A DNA stretch of 33,318 bases from a virus, in the IMG/VR virus record IMGVR_UViG_3300045120_000390, positions 1 to 33,318 of that record; one strand, written 5' to 3'. Below the pieces are notes generated by a model. It was given only the letters and a program-made list of their open reading frames with translations, was not told the DNA's origin and made no database searches. The stretch's first letter is position 1. Every line of letters begins with the position of its first letter. The position numbers and the translations under genes were made by a program. Of this stretch, positions 4,437 through 33,204 are shown piece after piece.

Positions 4437-4685
4437 ATGGCAAAGATCAAAATGATCGCCACCAAACCGCACAGCTTTGGCATGCGGACTATCGAAGCGG
4501 ACGAAGAATTCGAAGTCGATAACGACCAGCAGGCGCAGACGCTGATCTCGCTCGGCCGCGCCACGCTGAAGGAAGGCAAATCGACCAAGGCCAAGCCGAC
4601 GACGACGAAGTCGGCCGACGAGGAGGAAGAGCCGGACAACGGCAAATACAAGACCCGCCAGATGAAGGCCAAGGGCGACAAGTAG
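4437..4685 (+). CDS. Small head-region protein, unknown function
   Basis: An 82-residue protein with a TAGGAG ribosome site overlapping the previous stop. Residues 1-48 form a compact block (hydrophobic start, EEFEVDNDQQAQTLISLGRA) of the kind found in small phage proteins near capsid and portal genes. The remainder is a highly charged Lys/Glu/Thr tail. It lies between the Ig-like protein and portal, so a head role is likely, but I cannot name a function. Its stop codon abuts the GTG start of the portal gene. Confidence 0.6.
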   Translation: MAKIKMIATKPHSFGMRTIEADEEFEVDNDQQAQTLISLGRATLKEGKSTKAKPTTTKSADEEEEPDNGKYKTRQMKAKGDK

Positions 4686-6068
4686 GTGCGCCTGTTCGGG
4701 CTGACGATAACCCGCGCTGCGCGGCAGGAAACGCTGCAACCGGTCTGGGGCGGTGTCGGATCGGGCCGCGGCTGGTTCCCGCTGATGGTCGGCGACCATT
4801 ATCCCGGCGCCTGGCAGCGCAACGACGAGATCGTGGTCGGCGACGTGCTCGCCTATTCGGCGGTTTTCGCCTGCGTCACGCTGATCGCCTCCGACATCGG
4901 CAAGCTGCGCGTAAAGCTGGTGCAGCAGGATCCGGACGGCATCTGGAGCGAGACCGAATCGCCGGCTTTCTCGCCGGTGCTCAGGAAGCCGAACCACTAT
5001 CAGACGCGCATAAAGTTCTTCGAGCAGTGGATCACCTCCAAGCTGGTGCACGGCAATGCATACGTGTTGAAGGAACGTGACCAGCGCGGCGTAGTGGTCG
5101 CCCTGACCGTGCTCGATCCGCAACGCGTGACACCGTTGGTCTCGCCACGCGGCGACGTTTATTACGAGCTCAGGCGCAACGATCTCGCCGGCGTCTATGA
5201 CGAGACCAACATCGTCGTGCCGGCGCGAGAGATCATTCATGACCTGATGGTGCCGCTCTACCATCCGCTGGTCGGCGTCTCGCCAATCTATGCCTGCGGC
5301 CTGGCCGCCATGCAGGGGCTAAAAATCCAGAACAATTCGACGAGCTTCTTTGCCAACGGTTCGCAGCCCGGCGGCGTACTCACCGCGCCGGGCGCCATCG
5401 CCGACGATACCGCGACACGGCTCAAGGACTATTGGAACGCCAATTATTCCGGCTCCAATGTCGGCAAGGTGGCAGTGCTCGGCGACGGACTTAAATATGA
5501 GCCGATGAGCGTCAACGCGGTCGACGCGCAGCTGGTCGAGCAGCTGAAATGGACCGCCGAGACAGTCTGCTCGTGCTTCCACGTACCGCCTTACATGATC
5601 GGCGCAGCGGCGGCGCCCGCCTACAACAACATCGAGGCGCTTAACCAGCAATATTACGCGCAGTGCCTGCAGAGCCTGATCGAGAACGCCGAGCTCTGCC
5701 TCGACGAAGGCCTCGGCATCGGCGTCGGCGTCGGCATCGACGGTAGGATCTACGGCACCGAGTTCGACCTCGAGGGCCTCTTGAGGATGGACACCGCGGC
5801 CAAGGTGAAGGCGGCGGCCGAGGCGATCGGTGCCGGCTTCCTGAAGCCCAACGAGGCGCGCAAGCAGTTCGACCTGAAGCCGGTTACCGGCGGCGACACG
5901 CCGTACCTGCAGCAGCAGAACTTCTCGCTGGCCGCGCTCGACAAGCGCGATCGCGACGATCCGTTCGCCAAGCCGGCGGCGCCGGCGGCACCGGTCAACG
6001 ACAATGCCGCGGCCGCCGAGCAGGCTGCGAAGGAGCTGGGAGGAAGGCGCTATGTCCGATCCGGCTAA
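4686..6068 (+). CDS. HK97-family portal protein
   Basis: A 460-residue portal, the dodecameric ring at the capsid vertex through which DNA passes and to which the tail attaches. Family blocks are visible: the VAYSAVFACVTLIASDI-like start of the core, HGNAYVL, the IIHDLMVPLYHPLVGVSPI region, GGVL with the following KDYWNANYSG, and WTAETVCSCFHVPPYMIG. The start is GTG immediately after the preceding TAG. The C-terminus is Ala/Pro-rich. The gene sits downstream of capsid, whereas many HK97-type phages have portal before protease and capsid. Gene order is therefore rearranged. Confidence 0.92.
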   Translation: MRLFGLTITRAARQETLQPVWGGVGSGRGWFPLMVGDHYPGAWQRNDEIVVGDVLAYSAVFACVTLIASDIGKLRVKLVQQDPDGIWSETESPAFSPVLRKPNHYQTRIKFFEQWITSKLVHGNAYVLKERDQRGVVVALTVLDPQRVTPLVSPRGDVYYELRRNDLAGVYDETNIVVPAREIIHDLMVPLYHPLVGVSPIYACGLAAMQGLKIQNNSTSFFANGSQPGGVLTAPGAIADDTATRLKDYWNANYSGSNVGKVAVLGDGLKYEPMSVNAVDAQLVEQLKWTAETVCSCFHVPPYMIGAAAAPAYNNIEALNQQYYAQCLQSLIENAELCLDEGLGIGVGVGIDGRIYGTEFDLEGLLRMDTAAKVKAAAEAIGAGFLKPNEARKQFDLKPVTGGDTPYLQQQNFSLAALDKRDRDDPFAKPAAPAAPVNDNAAAAEQAAKELGGRRYVRSG

Positions 6069-18865: not shown

Positions 18866-19135
18866 ATGAGCCTCGTTGGAATCCTGCTGGGACTGCTCGA
18901 CATCGCGATCGCCGTCCTGATCCTGGTGCTGATCGGTGCCATTGCGCTGTGGATATTCGGCTCGCTCGGCTGGCCGATCCCGCAACAGGTGCAGCGGATC
19001 TATCTCGCCATCGTCGCGGTGATTGCGCTGGCGATGCTGATTTCACTGCTGCTGGGCGTGCCGCGCTTCCAGATCCTGCATGTGTCGGCCGCAGGGAGCG
19101 TCACAGACGCGCGAGAGGCTTCGGCCGCCGTCTGA
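18866..19135 (+). CDS. Small membrane protein, holin-like candidate
   Basis: An 89-residue protein with an AGGAG ribosome site. There are two strong transmembrane segments, about 4-32 and 46-66, with a short WPIPQQVQ turn and a polar C-terminal tail. Size, topology and pairing with another small membrane protein fit a class II-like holin, but no family is recognised. It is the last gene of the long plus-strand structural block. Confidence 0.55.
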   Translation: MSLVGILLGLLDIAIAVLILVLIGAIALWIFGSLGWPIPQQVQRIYLAIVAVIALAMLISLLLGVPRFQILHVSAAGSVTDAREASAAV

Positions 19136-21991: not shown

Positions 21992-22236
21992 GTCCTGCCT
22001 TCCGTTTGCGTCGGATAGACGATGCCCTTGTCGCGCTCCCACAGGAAGTTCGTATAATCGCCCTGGTCGGTGATCTGGACCTTGACCACCAGGCCGGTCC
22101 TGCCGAGCACGCCGTCGATGCAGCGCTTCGCCGCGAGGACCGCTTCCTGCGCCGGCACGTCGCGGACGAAATATTCGTAGAAGCCGTCGTCGAACCAGAT
22201 CACGACGTTGAACGGGCCGTCTTCCTCGGCTGGCAT
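21988..22236 (-). CDS. Small unknown protein
   Basis: An 82-residue alpha/beta protein (FNVVIWFDDGFYEYFVRDVPAQEAVLAAKRCIDG... VVKVQITDQGDYTNFLWERDKGIVYP). Order of strands and helix suggests a compact ferredoxin-like fold. ATG 22236 overlaps the RecT stop by one base and has GAGGGA upstream. This kind of protein is common next to recombination genes in alphaproteobacterial phages, but I cannot assign a function. Confidence 0.6.
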   Translation of the reverse strand: MPAEEDGPFNVVIWFDDGFYEYFVRDVPAQEAVLAAKRCIDGVLGRTGLVVKVQITDQGDYTNFLWERDKGIVYPTQTEGRT

Positions 22237-23234
22237 CACAGTCCCTCGAGATACTTCCGCGCCGCTGCCGGCTTGAGCTCGCCGCGGATCCACTTCGCCG
22301 CCGCCGCGATCGCCTCGTCGAGGAATGCTGCCGGCACCGTCTCGGCCACGACCGGCCGGCGAAGGTCCAGCTGCTCGAGCTTGTCCTCGGCGGTCAGTTC
22401 CTTGTCGCCGGCGAGGTCGACCAGCCAGGCGATCGCCGAGGCCTTCGCGTCGAGCTCGGAGGCAATTCCCGCCGACGCCGCCGGAAGAGGGTTGGCAGCG
22501 CCGGCGGGGGCGGACCCGGATGTCGGCTCCGTTCCGCCTGCAGCCGGTTCCTCCTCGAGGGGTGAGGAAGGTGACGACGAACCGGCCGCGAATTCATCGA
22601 GCGATCGGGGAATTGCCTTCGCCTTCGCCGGCGCATCCGCGACCGGCTTCGGCGTCACGTCAGTCATGGCTGCCTCGCGCAGCTCGTCGACGTCGTGGAT
22701 GCCCATGATCACCTCCGGGCACCAGCGGCGGGCGAATGCGCGCAGGGAATAATAGGCGAGCTGCTGGCCGGGATCCGACTTCCAGAGTGGCGAGTTCTTC
22801 GGCTGGATGTCGGCGATCCTGGGCGACTTGTATTCGCGCTCGGCACCGTCCCGGAAGGTGCCGGTGACGGTGGCGCGCATCTCCTGGCCTTCGCCTTCGT
22901 AGCGGATGTCGGGCCGCGTCTTCAGTGGCGCATGCGCATTGATGATCGCCATGAAGACCTGCGCCTGGTAGGCGAGCTGGTCGTTCACGAAATAGCTTTG
23001 CCGACCCAAAGCGTAAGGATTGACGCCAAACCTGACGGCATCATCAAGAATGCCGAGGCAGGCGCCGGGCTGGCCGCGCAGGTGCTTTGGCACGGCCGAG
23101 CCGCTCGCCGACATCATGCGGGCAAACTCCATGAGCTCACCCGCATTCTGGAAATTGATGCCGCCCTTGCCGACCTCGATCGTGTCGGCGATGTCGCGGT
23201 TGATCTTGCGCTCGGCGAGTGCTGTGTCGCTCAT
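22236..23234 (-). CDS. recT: RecT-family single-strand annealing protein
   Basis: A 332-residue protein. Residues about 25-205 match RecT/Red-beta-like annealing proteins (AGELMEFARMMSASGSAVPKHLRGQPGACLGI, AYQAQVFMAIINAHAPLKTRP, WKSDPGQQLAYYSLRAFARRWCPEVIMGI). Residues about 215-275 are a Ser/Pro/Glu/Ala-rich flexible linker, and the C-terminus is a helical domain. Together with the exonuclease upstream it forms a two-component recombination system on resected ends. ATG 23234 overlaps the exonuclease stop as ATGA, so the longer open frame to 23441 is not coding. Confidence 0.88.
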   Translation of the reverse strand: MSDTALAERKINRDIADTIEVGKGGINFQNAGELMEFARMMSASGSAVPKHLRGQPGACLGILDDAVRFGVNPYALGRQSYFVNDQLAYQAQVFMAIINAHAPLKTRPDIRYEGEGQEMRATVTGTFRDGAEREYKSPRIADIQPKNSPLWKSDPGQQLAYYSLRAFARRWCPEVIMGIHDVDELREAAMTDVTPKPVADAPAKAKAIPRSLDEFAAGSSSPSSPLEEEPAAGGTEPTSGSAPAGAANPLPAASAGIASELDAKASAIAWLVDLAGDKELTAEDKLEQLDLRRPVVAETVPAAFLDEAIAAAAKWIRGELKPAAARKYLEGL

Positions 23235-24160
23235 GCTGCCTTTTCCTTCTGCCTGGTGATCAGCAGCCGCGGGAAGTCCGCGGCCGGCTGAAGCTTCTCG
23301 GCACGATGCTGCATTACGTTGGTGATTTTCCAGCCGTCGGCGATCGCCGCCTCGGCGCCGGCCAGCTTCACGAGGATCTCGCTCTTCACGGCTTCCTTGC
23401 CCTTCTTCGCCGCCGACTCCTGGGCGCCGAGGCGCTGCCATTCCTCGGCGAGGAAGGTGATCCTGTTGTCGCGGGTCAGATCGATCGGTGCAGGCTTTGC
23501 CGGATCCGGCCGGAACACCTGGCGGATCGCGTCGGCATCGCGCTCATAGTCCGGCGCTGTCAGGGCATGGCCTTCGTCGAAGGCCTGCCAGAACCGGCGG
23601 GCGAGATCGCGGATCGTCGCCTCGGCGCCGGCATGCCGCGGCACCTCGTGCACGACGAGCTCGGCGTCCTGCCAGCCGAGCACCAGCGCGGCGAGGATGC
23701 CGTGATGGGCGCCGAGCAGCATGGTGTTGGTGAGCGTCTGCAGCACGTAGCCGATCGGCGGCTCGCCGTCCGGCCAGTTGCGTTCGTAGCTCTGCCGCGA
23801 GATCACCTTGAACTCGAAGGCGACCGGCTGGCCGCGATCGAGGCCGTCGGCATCGGGCGTGCCTCCGAGCCTGAGATCCGGGTCGCGCAAATAGAGGCCG
23901 AGCGGATAGCGGACCTCGAGCTCGGGGCGCTGCTCGGCGAGCGCGGCAGCGACACCCGGCTCGATCCAGCGTCCCAGCTTCATGGCGGAATTTTCCTCGG
24001 CGGGCGATGCCAGGCCGGCCTTCTGCGCCCAGACCTGCCAGGCCGTGCGGCCATAGGGATCGAGGCCGGCGACTGCGGCGAGGTCGGAGGCGGTGATGTC
24101 TTGGGCGCGCAGCTCGAGCCAGGTGGCGCGGTCGGTGATGGCGAAGGCGTCGACGGTCAT
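23231..24160 (-). CDS. YqaJ/lambda-type exonuclease
   Basis: A 309-residue nuclease of the YqaJ (lambda exo) family. Motifs: WLELRAQDITASDLAAVAG near the N-terminus, an acidic metal ligand in GGTPDAD (about 103-105), the E116-x-K118 pair in AFEFKV, and Gln141 in GYVLQ. It should degrade one strand from double-strand ends and hand single strands to RecT. The RecT gene follows with a four-base overlap. A GGGAG site precedes the start. Confidence 0.88.
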   Translation of the reverse strand: MTVDAFAITDRATWLELRAQDITASDLAAVAGLDPYGRTAWQVWAQKAGLASPAEENSAMKLGRWIEPGVAAALAEQRPELEVRYPLGLYLRDPDLRLGGTPDADGLDRGQPVAFEFKVISRQSYERNWPDGEPPIGYVLQTLTNTMLLGAHHGILAALVLGWQDAELVVHEVPRHAGAEATIRDLARRFWQAFDEGHALTAPDYERDADAIRQVFRPDPAKPAPIDLTRDNRITFLAEEWQRLGAQESAAKKGKEAVKSEILVKLAGAEAAIADGWKITNVMQHRAEKLQPAADFPRLLITRQKEKAA

Positions 24161-28894: not shown

Positions 28895-29109
28895 GCGGCC
28901 GCTGGGAGCTCTGGCGCTATAGCTTCCTCACCGAGGCCGCGGCCGAGGCGCGCAAGGCCAGTCGCCGCTACTGGGCGCCGGACGGGCCGGCCGATCGCCG
29001 CTATCCCGTCCTGCCATCACCAGGCTGGCCCGAGCCCAGCCAGGCCGCGCGCAGCACCGTCGCCGCCGTCGAGGACATCCGCGAGCGGGCGCGGAGACGG
29101 AGGCGGTGA
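28891..29109 (+). CDS. Small unknown basic protein
   Basis: A 72-residue protein, overlapping the nuclease as ATGA and the helicase as GTGA. The first half is Arg/Trp/Tyr-rich (RWELWRYSFLTEAAAEARKASRRYW) and the protein ends in a basic helix (IRERARRRRR). It may bind DNA next to the replication proteins. No family is recognised. Confidence 0.6.
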   Translation: MSGRWELWRYSFLTEAAAEARKASRRYWAPDGPADRRYPVLPSPGWPEPSQAARSTVAAVEDIRERARRRRR

Positions 29110-30458
29110 AGGATGAGGCAAAAAGAAGGCCATCGCAGCCCGACCAGATCAGGGGGCACACCGACGAGTCCCTGGCGCTCGAGTTCGCCACCCGCAACTG
29201 CGGCCTGTTCCGCTACGTGGCCGACTGGAGCCGCTGGATGATCTTCGACGGCAGCATGTGGACGCGCGACGAGACCCTGCATGTCTATGCCGAGGCACGC
29301 GCCCTGGTGCGCGAGGATTCGATCTCGGCGCCGAAGAAGGACCAGCCGCGGATCCTGTCGTCGCGCACCATTCACGCGATCGTCAGCCTGGCCCGCACCG
29401 ATCCGATCCTCGCCGCGGTCGTCGATCAGTGGGACGACGACGAAACGGTGATTCACTGCGACGGCGAGATCCACCAGCTGATGGTCGAGGGCGACCCGCG
29501 ATCGGCGATCCCCGGCGACTATCTGACCAAATCGACTGCGACCAAGCCGGACGGCGAGGACTGCCCGATGTGGCGCGAGTTCCTCGAGGTGGTCACCGGC
29601 GGCGACGCGGCGCTGATCGACTACCTGCAGCGCATGTGCGGCTATTGCCTCACCGGCTCGACCCGGGAGCAGGTGCTGTTCTTCCTCTACGGTCCGGGCG
29701 GCAACGGCAAATCCACCTTCGTCAACACCATCGCCGGCGTCATGGGCGACTATGCCAAGACCGCGGCGATCGACACCTTCTCGACGTCGAGCAACGATCG
29801 GCATCCGACCGATCTCGCCAACCTGCAGGGCGCCCGCCTCGTCACCGCGACCGAGACAGCCGAAGGCAGGCGCTGGGACGAGACCCGGATCAAGACGCTG
29901 ACCGGCGGCGACCGGATCTCGGCACGCTTCATGCGCCAGGACTTCTTCACCTACCTGCCGGCCTTCAAGCTGGTCGTCAGCGGCAACCACAAGCCCGAGC
30001 TGAAGGGCGTCGACGAGGCCTGGCGCCGGCGCATGCAGATCATTCCCTTCACCGTCCGGATCCCGCCAGGCAAGCGCATCCGCGGCTATGACGAGAAGCT
30101 GCGCGCGGAGTGGCCGGCGATCCTCATGTGGATGATCGAGGGCGCCAGGCTCTGGGCGCGCGATGGCCTTAACCCGCCGCCGGCCGTCACCGAGGCGACG
30201 GCCGAATATCTCGACAGCGAGGACGTGCTCGGCGGCTGGCTCGAGGAATGCACGACCCTCGAGGAGGACGCCTTCACCAGCCGGCAGCAGCTGTTCGTGT
30301 CGTGGGCAGCCTTCTGCAAACGCGTCGGTGAGGTGCCAGGCACGCGCAAGACGTTCGCCGCCGCTCTCAACCGCCGCGAAGGCCTCAAGCAAAGCAAGCG
30401 CGAAGGACTCCGCGGCTATCTCGGCATCCGCCTCAGGATCGATTTCGAGCTGACATGA
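29106..30458 (+). CDS. D5/P4-type SF3 replicative helicase
   Basis: A 450-residue protein from GTG 29106. Residues about 20-170 are a D5 N-terminal region, and about 190-370 an SF3 helicase core: Walker A GPGGNGKST (196-204), ATET Walker B-like motif, LVVSGNHKP (motif C) and arginine-finger region EAWRRRMQIIPF. The C-terminus looks like a winged helix. Unlike P4 alpha there is no primase domain, so priming must come from the host or another protein. It probably unwinds the origin, which may be the repeat region at 30756-30919. Confidence 0.9.
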   Translation: MKDEAKRRPSQPDQIRGHTDESLALEFATRNCGLFRYVADWSRWMIFDGSMWTRDETLHVYAEARALVREDSISAPKKDQPRILSSRTIHAIVSLARTDPILAAVVDQWDDDETVIHCDGEIHQLMVEGDPRSAIPGDYLTKSTATKPDGEDCPMWREFLEVVTGGDAALIDYLQRMCGYCLTGSTREQVLFFLYGPGGNGKSTFVNTIAGVMGDYAKTAAIDTFSTSSNDRHPTDLANLQGARLVTATETAEGRRWDETRIKTLTGGDRISARFMRQDFFTYLPAFKLVVSGNHKPELKGVDEAWRRRMQIIPFTVRIPPGKRIRGYDEKLRAEWPAILMWMIEGARLWARDGLNPPPAVTEATAEYLDSEDVLGGWLEECTTLEEDAFTSRQQLFVSWAAFCKRVGEVPGTRKTFAAALNRREGLKQSKREGLRGYLGIRLRIDFELT

Positions 30459-30468
30459 GGAGGTATCC

Positions 30469-30732
30469 GTGCCGTTGACGAAGATCTCTTTGACGGACCT
30501 CGAGGGCAATGTCGTGCACGAGGTCGAGCTCGATGTTGGCGCTGATCCTCATGACATCGACTCGACGGACTGGCCCGGCGCTATCGTCTGGAACAACCGG
30601 GTGTTTACTGCATTCGCGCTCCCCGATTGCGACGACCCGGATCTTTGGCAGCTGTGCTTCGAAGAGCAACGGGCCGTCCTGCTTGTTGCAGGCGGTAAAG
30701 AGGCGCTGCTGAAGGCGATCCGACCGTCATGA
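30469..30732 (+). CDS. Unknown early protein
   Basis: An 87-residue acidic protein starting at GTG 30469 with GAGGAGG upstream. It is beta-rich (KISLTDLEGNVVHEVELDV), with PDCDDPDLWQLCFEEQRAVLLVAGG near the C-terminus. It follows the helicase and precedes the inverted-iteron region. No family is recognised, and it could be an accessory replication factor. Confidence 0.6.
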   Translation: MPLTKISLTDLEGNVVHEVELDVGADPHDIDSTDWPGAIVWNNRVFTAFALPDCDDPDLWQLCFEEQRAVLLVAGGKEALLKAIRPS

Positions 30733-30755
30733 AAAACTGGTTCGCTTTTGCAAGC

Positions 30756-30919
30756 GGGGCACTTGGGGCACTTGGCCCGGTAATCGACGTTCATGCGTGC
30801 GCATTGCGCCACAGGCCTGCGTACACGCGCGTGCGCGCGCACATATACGCATTACGTTTTTTCCCCTCTCCCAGAAAACTATTATGGGAAACACGTGCCC
30901 CAAGTGCCCCAAGTGCCCC
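30756..30919. repeat. Inverted iteron region with Z-DNA-type tract (candidate origin or control element)
   Basis: Left arm 30756-30775 (GGGGCACTTGGGGCACTTGG) is the exact reverse complement of 30900-30919. Each arm is two copies of a 9-bp unit, and the right side has a third imperfect copy (30893-30901). Between the arms, 30818-30852 is 35 bases of perfect alternating purine-pyrimidine, followed by a relatively AT-rich stretch (30851-30892). The region holds no gene. Confidence 0.7.
30857..30885 (+). promoter_or_regulatory. Weak candidate promoter in the iteron region
   Basis: TTTTTT, 17 bases, TATTAT. The -10 is good and the -35 weak. Transcripts would start at about 30892, right before the AAGTGCCCC copies, and lead into 30941. 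Confidence 0.35.
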
Positions 30920-30940
30920 GGAAATTAGGAGGATAATCCC

Positions 30941-31213
30941 ATGAACGAACCGATCCGGATGAAGCCTGAAGCCGCCGATCCGCCGGCCGAGGTCGCCACC
31001 AGAGCGGATCCCGAGCGCTATTTCCGGCTCGGCGAGAACCTGCTGCGTCAGGTGCGGGCCGAGCTCATCGAGGCCGACGCCGCATGGCGCAGGAAGCGTA
31101 CCGAGCTCGTCGATCGCGCCAGGGACGAAGTCGGCCAGCTCGACCATGAGCACGAGGAGCTGATCGCCCGGCTGCGTGGCACGATCGCCCGGCTCGAAAG
31201 AGGCCGGCCGTGA
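30941..31213 (+). CDS. Coiled-coil protein, unknown
   Basis: A 90-residue protein with a strong TAGGAGG site. Residues 25-88 form a continuous charged helix (RYFRLGENLLRQVRAELIEADAAWRRKRTELVDRARDEVGQLDHEHEELIARLRGTIARLE) with clear heptads. The N-terminus is Pro/Ala/Glu-rich. It probably oligomerises. Function unknown. Confidence 0.65.
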   Translation: MNEPIRMKPEAADPPAEVATRADPERYFRLGENLLRQVRAELIEADAAWRRKRTELVDRARDEVGQLDHEHEELIARLRGTIARLERGRP

Positions 31214-31226
31214 CCGGAGACTGACC

Positions 31227-31823
31227 ATGTCAGAGCAGACCGAACTCAAGCCCTGCCCGTTTTGCGGCGGGAAGGCAGAATCATGGACTTACATGGACCG
31301 TGGCTTTTTGCGCGCTGCGGCTCGCTGTCGCGACTGTACTGCTCGCGTATGGGACGCAACCGAAACCGAAGCCGTCGCAGCCTGGAATCGTCGTCCCCAA
31401 GGGGCGGTGACGCCAGCAGCGAAGATAGACAACCTGACACGAGACGAAGCAGAAGGGCGTGCTCGTGCGCTGTACCTCAAGAGTGGCTGGGAGGCCGGCG
31501 ACAAGTTGGGCGCACATTCTGTGCTGCAACTCATGTCGGCTCTCGCGCTCGACGTGGCTGTAAACCCGCTTGTCTCGTGCGACTATCCCGGCTGTGGCTG
31601 CGATGCCGACGCAGTTTGCAATGTCGCGCTCGCCACCCCAGCCAGTCCAGAACCGGAAGGGTGGAAGCTGGTGCCTGTCGCGCCGACAGAGAAGATGATG
31701 CTCCGATGCCAGATGAGGCAAGCCACACAGGGTTACGTGCCTCCGAATACCGCTGAGGAGATACGCGAATTCTGGTCGGACATGATTGCCGCCTCTCCCC
31801 ATCAAGAACGGGGGGAGCCGTGA
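31227..31823 (+). CDS. Lar-like zinc-ribbon protein with unknown C-terminal part
   Basis: A 198-residue protein. Residues 7-55 match the restriction alleviation Lar family: CPFCGG (C10, C13), ARCRDC (C34, C37) and AVAAWNRR. Lar can dampen type I restriction, but many family members have no tested role. Residues 60-198 include another cysteine cluster (CDYPGCGCDADAVC) and the phage motif EGWKLVPVAPTEKMM. The gene is lower in GC3 than its neighbours, suggesting transfer. GGAG precedes ATG 31227. Confidence 0.75.
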   Translation: MSEQTELKPCPFCGGKAESWTYMDRGFLRAAARCRDCTARVWDATETEAVAAWNRRPQGAVTPAAKIDNLTRDEAEGRARALYLKSGWEAGDKLGAHSVLQLMSALALDVAVNPLVSCDYPGCGCDADAVCNVALATPASPEPEGWKLVPVAPTEKMMLRCQMRQATQGYVPPNTAEEIREFWSDMIAASPHQERGEP

Positions 31824-32768: not shown

Positions 32769-32838
32769 GGTATCTGTGGTAACGCGGCTACACCGCATCT
32801 TGTGGGTGAGGCGCCATGTTGTCAGTACGTCAGGCCGC

Positions 32839-33204
32839 ATGATGGCGCGGCTCGCCACGCTCGCGCCGCAGCTAACGCCATTGCCTTCGGCACTCGGCTA
32901 CCTGCCGAGCGATGCAGCCGCACAATCCCGCTATCGCCGCAGCACCCAGCCCTGGCAGGGCTGGTACAAGACCGCACGCTGGCAGCGGCTGCGCTGGTCG
33001 GTGCTGGTACGTGACTGCTTCACGTGCACCAGGTGCAAGCGGGTGATCGTCGAGAAGGGCGAGGCGATCTGCGACCACGTCGAGCCGCATCGAGGCGACC
33101 ACACCCGCTTCTGGGCTGGCCCGTTCCAGACCCTATGCAAGCAGTGCCATGACTCGGCCAAGCAGCAGGCCGAGTTCGCGATCGAGCGCGGGGTCCGGCC
33201 ATGA
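32839..33204 (+). CDS. HNH endonuclease next to terminase
   Basis: A 121-residue HNH nuclease: two zinc CxxC pairs (C63/C66, C100/C103), the HNH centre in AICDHVEPHRGDH, and CKQCHDSAKQQ. A tryptophan/arginine-rich N-terminal part (QPWQGWYKTARWQRLRW) is typical of phage HNH proteins encoded beside terminase, which are needed for packaging cleavage in HK97-like phages. ATG 32839/32842 is preferred to GTG 32776. Its stop overlaps the next start as ATGA. Confidence 0.88.
   Translation: MMARLATLAPQLTPLPSALGYLPSDAAAQSRYRRSTQPWQGWYKTARWQRLRWSVLVRDCFTCTRCKRVIVEKGEAICDHVEPHRGDHTRFWAGPFQTLCKQCHDSAKQQAEFAIERGVRP

Follow-up and report, generated by a model that had tools for sequence, protein, structure and literature searches.

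The inverted repeats and the alternating purine-pyrimidine tract found downstream of the helicase gene in our window (the whole stretch of DNA analysed, a virus record of 33,318 bases from IMG/VR that encodes a terminase, head and tail proteins, an integrase and an endolysin) very probably form a phage replication origin bound by the phage's own D5/P4-family SF3 helicase. This reading is carried by the architecture of the region, its linkage to the helicase, the covariation of the two arms and the covariation of the iterons with the winged helix of the helicase, all of which were observed at the level of sequence. It would be a widespread variant of a type of origin that is already known, and no description of this variant was found in the literature searched, the coverage of which was partial. 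The preliminary description of this DNA had proposed an iteron origin or a helicase loading site, which are one thing here, and that proposal gained support from the linkage to one helicase family, from the Sfi21 and A2 origins and from the tracking of the iterons with the winged helix. The features of the region are the following.

29106-30458, plus strand: D5/P4-family (SF3) helicase, 450 aa (Pfam D5_N + DUF5906, PHROG, TIGR01613)
30469-30732, plus strand: 87-aa ORF without family match, between the helicase and the putative origin
30755-30775, plus strand: left iteron arm with two GGGGCACTT units at 9-bp spacing
30784-30793, plus strand: inner motif, approximately TAATCGACGT, one letter off TTATCGACGT
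30792-30804, no strand: first short alternating purine-pyrimidine run, 13 bp
30818-30852, no strand: alternating purine-pyrimidine core, Z-DNA-prone, 35 bp, 63% GC
30853-30892, no strand: AT-rich/polypyrimidine spacer, candidate DNA-unwinding element, 40% GC
30893-30920, minus strand: right iteron arm, three units of opposite orientation, one degenerate and two exact

The left arm (CGGGGCACTTGGGGCACTTGG) has an exact inverted partner at 30900-30920, the two being 21 nt long, 100% complementary and 124 nt apart, which confirms the exact inverted arms of a 9-bp unit given in the preliminary description. A third unit on the right side, ACGTGCCCC at 30893-30901, carries one mismatch and brings the units to two on the left and three on the right. 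GGGGCACTT and its complement were absent from the rest of the 33 kb window, and a search for CTTGGGGCACTTGG with at most three mismatches gave 10 matches in the window for 2.5 expected, a number reached in 0 of 100 shuffles. In relatives, TTATCGACGT was over-represented at the core-facing edge of the arms, with 0-1 mismatch in 12% on the left and 6.5% on the right, compared with 0.3% in shuffles. As a shared motif, GGGGCACTTGGGGCACTTGG gave 5 exact matches only in viral contigs, for which only the sequence around each match was covered and none was linked to a helicase gene.

The tract at 30818-30852, reported earlier as 35 bp of alternation, proved to be perfect over that length and far longer than chance would give: the second-longest run of the window measures 14 bp, and when 100 equally long first-order Markov sequences were generated, their longest runs had a mean of 16.5 bp and a maximum of 21 bp. 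The alternating tract is itself of average stability, while the neighbouring spacer is very unstable, the 40-mer from 30851 to 30890 being among the 0.1% least stable in the window. The exactness of the arms, the length of the tract relative to the Markov sequences and the unstable 40-mer beside it indicate that arms and tract are real and beyond chance. The AT-rich segment previously noticed was found at 30853-30892, but no sigma-70-like promoter was found for the promoter-like -10 assigned to it.

The arms lie 3' of the helicase, as had been described, but they do not come directly after its stop (30458), since the 87-aa ORF intervenes. This ORF has a good ribosome-binding site, GAGGAGG just 5' of its GTG start, and family searches with it (Pfam, PHROG and TIGR-type profiles) gave no match. 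Most relatives have no gene between the helicase and the arms, and the window is unusual in having this one. A small protein running through the region itself (66 codons are open from 30729) was rejected because the arms are repeats and the sequence of the relatives is unrelated. Examination of GC skew, which the preliminary description had called for, showed no switch at the site and was uninformative. DnaA boxes (CTGTGGATAA with at most one mismatch) were absent near the site, with one chance-level match at 18947, and a DNA-level similarity search of GenBank phages gave nothing meaningful. Elsewhere in the window, ARAGORN called a tRNA-Asp (gtc) at 5903-5978 on the minus strand, antisense to the portal ORF (4686-6068) near its 3' end; the call is either spurious or marks an att-like fragment of a tRNA. 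A RecT-like annealing protein (phrog_561) is encoded at 22236-23441 on the minus strand, opposite to most genes. A Lar-like restriction alleviation protein and an HNH endonuclease are encoded downstream of the putative origin, at 31176-31823 and 32776-33204, respectively; with a terminase at 383, they suggest that the record could be close to a complete genome.

We then compared loci that were collected through the helicase (80 viral and 80 from bacterial genomes, plus GenBank phages) and dereplicated to 91, with sources among Proteobacteria, Actinobacteria, Firmicutes phages and others. Nearly all relatives with 45-50% identity have inverted arms and an alternating core of CG, CA and TA steps approximately 50-200 bp past the helicase stop. 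Downstream of the helicase, 74% of the 91 loci contain 12 bp or more of unbroken alternation, which was seen in 3.4% of the remaining windows of these loci and in 11% of shuffles. Enclosing inverted repeats scoring 12 or higher were present in 53% of the loci, in 0.4% of the remaining windows and in 0.2% of shuffles. When 80 bp upstream were allowed, 73 of 89 loci passed by script, and arms were visible on inspection in most of the others. Clear arms were missing in six loci, of which four (L165, L167, L170 and L172) carry helicase genes disrupted by frameshift or truncation, one (L174) has a helicase that was matched only in part, and one (L168) is ambiguous. Comparison with relatives, the check that the preliminary description had set for its own reading, did not refute that reading, the losses of clear arms falling on broken or partly matched helicase genes, with L168 ambiguous. 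Among the loci compared, the architecture follows the D5/P4-type helicase family across several phyla, and the element stays with the helicase while the gene 3' of it varies between relatives and the window.

The arms of these loci have the properties of iteron arrays. For the commonest 6-mer, 98 of the 137 neighbouring pairs on the same strand are spaced at 9-10 bp (7 in fivefold shuffles), and in 50 of 91 loci the copies on one side of the core are oriented opposite to those on the other. The arm match score had a mean of 17.3 within a locus and 5.5 between loci. The Actinomadura locus (L173) has ten copies of its unit, most of them outside the exact arms. Two DnaA-box-like CTGTGGATAA/G sequences lie beside this Actinomadura array, at 4640-4680 of the locus. 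The likeness of the Actinomadura unit GGGGCACTG to the unit of the window was taken as coincidence because its orientation to the core is opposite and the helicase is only 32% identical.

A different reading, of the kind put forward for plasmid pRN1 and phage BIP-1, is that the protein recognises this origin not by duplex iterons but by extrusion of a DNA cruciform or stem-loop, which we judge improbable. Extrusion of the window arms is possible, and the pRN1 origin is a 100-nt stem-loop just downstream of the SF3 helicase gene, conserved in structure and not in sequence, in which an intact stem is needed (PMC4234260). However, pRN1 was reported to have no iterons, whereas the window arms consist of tandem repeats spaced by a helical turn, differ in their number of units and are accompanied by extra copies. 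Cch2 bound and needed direct repeats, and deletion of its hairpin repeats left binding unaffected (PMC7581432). BPP-1, a near-twin of BIP-1, itself has inverted 9-bp units approximately 470 bp past its primase stop.

A large structured RNA between the flanking genes, in which the arms pair as a 21-bp stem with an attenuating, processing or stabilising role, is very unlikely. The folding energy of the plus strand (-89.5 kcal/mol) does lie far below that of shuffles (z -5.3), and the arms, besides being exactly complementary, covary between phages. Yet Rfam gave nothing at the gathering threshold and the arm mismatches have no G.U bias (G.T 55, A.C 41, other 135). The 9-10 bp period of the tandem repeats, their unequal counts per side and their extra unpaired copies are needless for a stem, and the site follows one helicase family. 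The RNA stem of the preliminary description is disfavoured by these results.

The helicase has the Walker A motif GPGGNGKST and stands alone, with no primase half fused to it. It matched TIGR01613 (P4-family primase C-term) at 2.4e-87 and was assigned by PHROG to primase/helicase families. Its AlphaFold model (pLDDT 88) retrieved D5/E5/AsfvPrimPol hexameric helicases in Foldseek, and its best PDB relative by sequence is 7ola, a solved primase-helicase. Many relatives have the helicase fused to an N-terminal half of approximately 300 residues; a tblastn search of the window with the N-terminal halves of fused relatives did not find this primase half elsewhere. The C-terminus of the model comprises a strand (383-392), two helices (393-407 and 414-422) and a wing (428-443), and residues 383-443, approximately, are predicted to form a winged helix of strand-helix-helix-two-strand order.

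Comparison of iteron similarity with the similarity of helicase residues 386-450, after removal of overall identity, gave a partial r of 0.151 (0 of 300 permutations), and the blocks over residues 1-360 correlated less with the iterons than did residues 386-450. The top column was residue 436, which the model places in the final strand of the wing, with an r of 0.278 (0 of 500 on the maximum over columns), and it was the sole column to pass. With an arginine or a lysine at position 436, GAC-type units were counted at 36:0, and with other residues GAA/GAG-type units at 18:3, under a rule formed after seeing the data and with crude classes. Since the rule was post hoc, it was applied unchanged to 53 newly fetched dereplicated loci, which gave 28:4 and 3:2 (Fisher p=0.037), in the same direction, weaker and of modest strength, in a set with few non-R cases and with arm calls that were automatic and crude. 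In a phylogeny of the helicase core, the class of the residue changed 11 times, that of the iteron 9 times and the combination 12 times; on supported branches there were only 5 independent pairs, nearly always in the same direction. Iteron sequence thus tracks the C-terminal winged helix of the helicase, mainly wing residue 436, beyond overall similarity.

This tracking of the unit sequence with the helicase C-terminus also argues against a phage-repressor operator or promoter region governing the genes from 30941 on, which is favoured by the -10-like TATTAT in the right spacer and by inverted short repeats 5' of a gene whose start codon has a strong ribosome-binding site. The search for sigma-70-like promoters was negative, and the element keeps to the helicase while the downstream gene varies, so that we give this explanation a slightly lower chance even than the RNA, although an autoregulatory role may be additional to the origin function. 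Simple-sequence tracts can expand by slippage, but functionless low-complexity or recombination debris arising by coincidence is refuted in practice by a layout repeated in nearly all of the 91 dereplicated loci, in several phyla and with differing unit sequences.

For the origin reading, binding, double-hexamer assembly, unwinding and bidirectional replication are proposed by analogy with characterised relatives, and the covariation lends indirect support to specific binding of the iterons by the helicase. The C-terminal winged helix would read the 9-bp GGGGCACTT units, and the two head-to-head arrays would set two hexamers face to face across the core of approximately 125 bp. ATP-driven assembly would distort and melt this core (the alternating tract plus the adjoining AT-rich spacer), the helicase rings would pass onto the single strands, and two forks would depart in opposite directions, with primase and polymerase supplied by the phage or by the host. 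What weighs against an origin is the GC skew, the extra ORF between helicase and arms in the window, the post hoc rule for residue 436 with its crude classes, its p value in the second set and its 5 independent pairs, and a core whose GC content in relatives (0.69) is higher than that of its surroundings (0.59).

Textbook origins have an AT-rich core, and a GC-rich core is odd for a melting site. The alternation in relatives is made of CG, CA/TG and TA steps; since it is conserved and its GC content is above that of the surroundings, simple AT-melting fails to explain the core. A supercoil-driven B-Z or other torsional switch is our conjecture for the role of the alternating tract. One locus (L110) has, past position 2147, a 37-bp perfect inverted repeat with CGAAGG units and no long alternating core, and the core is therefore not universal. 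In the literature covered, nothing was found on iteron origins of phages that contain Z-DNA or an alternating tract, which is no proof of novelty because the coverage was partial.

It is conceivable, though we lean against it, that these loci represent an unnamed widespread class of phage origins in which a GC-rich core is selected for alternation, and not for AT content, and in which origin specificity evolves as iterons and wing residue 436 undergo matched change. If so, the core would be a supercoil-driven structural switch (for example B-Z) at which two SF3 rings load, and the 9-10 bp iteron and residue 436 would be a readable recognition code. Most phages have unmapped origins, and since the layout can be recognised from sequence alone beside a very common helicase family, it would help to place the origins of many phages and prophages. 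Iterons and winged helix, by covarying, provide a testable code that could explain separate origins in related phages and satellites, and the GC-rich alternating core poses the question of how an SF3 helicase opens an origin whose centre is not AT-rich.

The putative origin has features in common with several known systems. The pRN1, BIP-1 and BPP-1 origins resemble it in their inverted arms 3' of an SF3 helicase gene, their C-terminal winged helix and a conserved arrangement with little conservation of sequence (PMC4234260). BIP-1 has been proposed to resemble the pRN1 origin, and both were read as stem-loops in which iterons were unrecognised (PMC4234260), whereas the window arms are tandem units (9-10 bp). 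In Bordetella phage BPP-1 (L175, 2608-2711), the inverted 9-bp units are TTGCCTCGT, present twice, and its complement; they are unmentioned in the stem-loop analysis of BIP-1 (PMC4234260) and lie beyond the hypothetical gene bbp28, a displacement by one gene as in the window. The alpha protein of phage P4 belongs, like the window helicase, to the TIGR01613 family and differs from it by a fused DnaG-type primase; its C-terminal winged helix binds the ori repeats, as cited in PMC4234260.

Cch2 of SCCmec and SaPI5 Rep share Primase_Cterm/D5_N domains with the window helicase. SaPI Rep and Cch2 use their C-terminal domains to bind iterons that lie immediately 3' of their own genes, and a double-hexamer model is proposed for these origins (PMC7581432); unlike the window, they have few short units (AAGTG in Cch2), and an alternating GC-rich core is unmentioned in the passages covered. 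Streptococcus phage Sfi21 carries an annotated 302-bp 'origin of replication', non-coding (PER), right after the primase gene, and autonomous replication was reported for this element as an independent origin (PMC6356513). It resembles the window in its position directly 3' of a primase-helicase gene, its exact 18-bp inverted arms and its tandem GTTAC units, and differs from it by its 28% GC, a unit period of 8, another unit sequence and a core that is AT-rich and partly alternating where that of the window is CG-alternating. The annotated rep_origin of Lactobacillus phage A2 overlaps and follows the end of the primase gene and has inverted ACGGGAGGAT repeats around a TATATA core; it resembles the window in this position and in its inverted repeats around a core, and differs from it by looser spacing, extra units and an AT-rich core. 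With origins of D5/P4-family self-loading initiator-helicases (the SaPI Rep, Sfi21 and A2 type), the window shares a cognate D5_N/Primase_Cterm helicase upstream, two sets of iterons flanking a core and a predicted C-terminal winged-helix DNA-binding domain.
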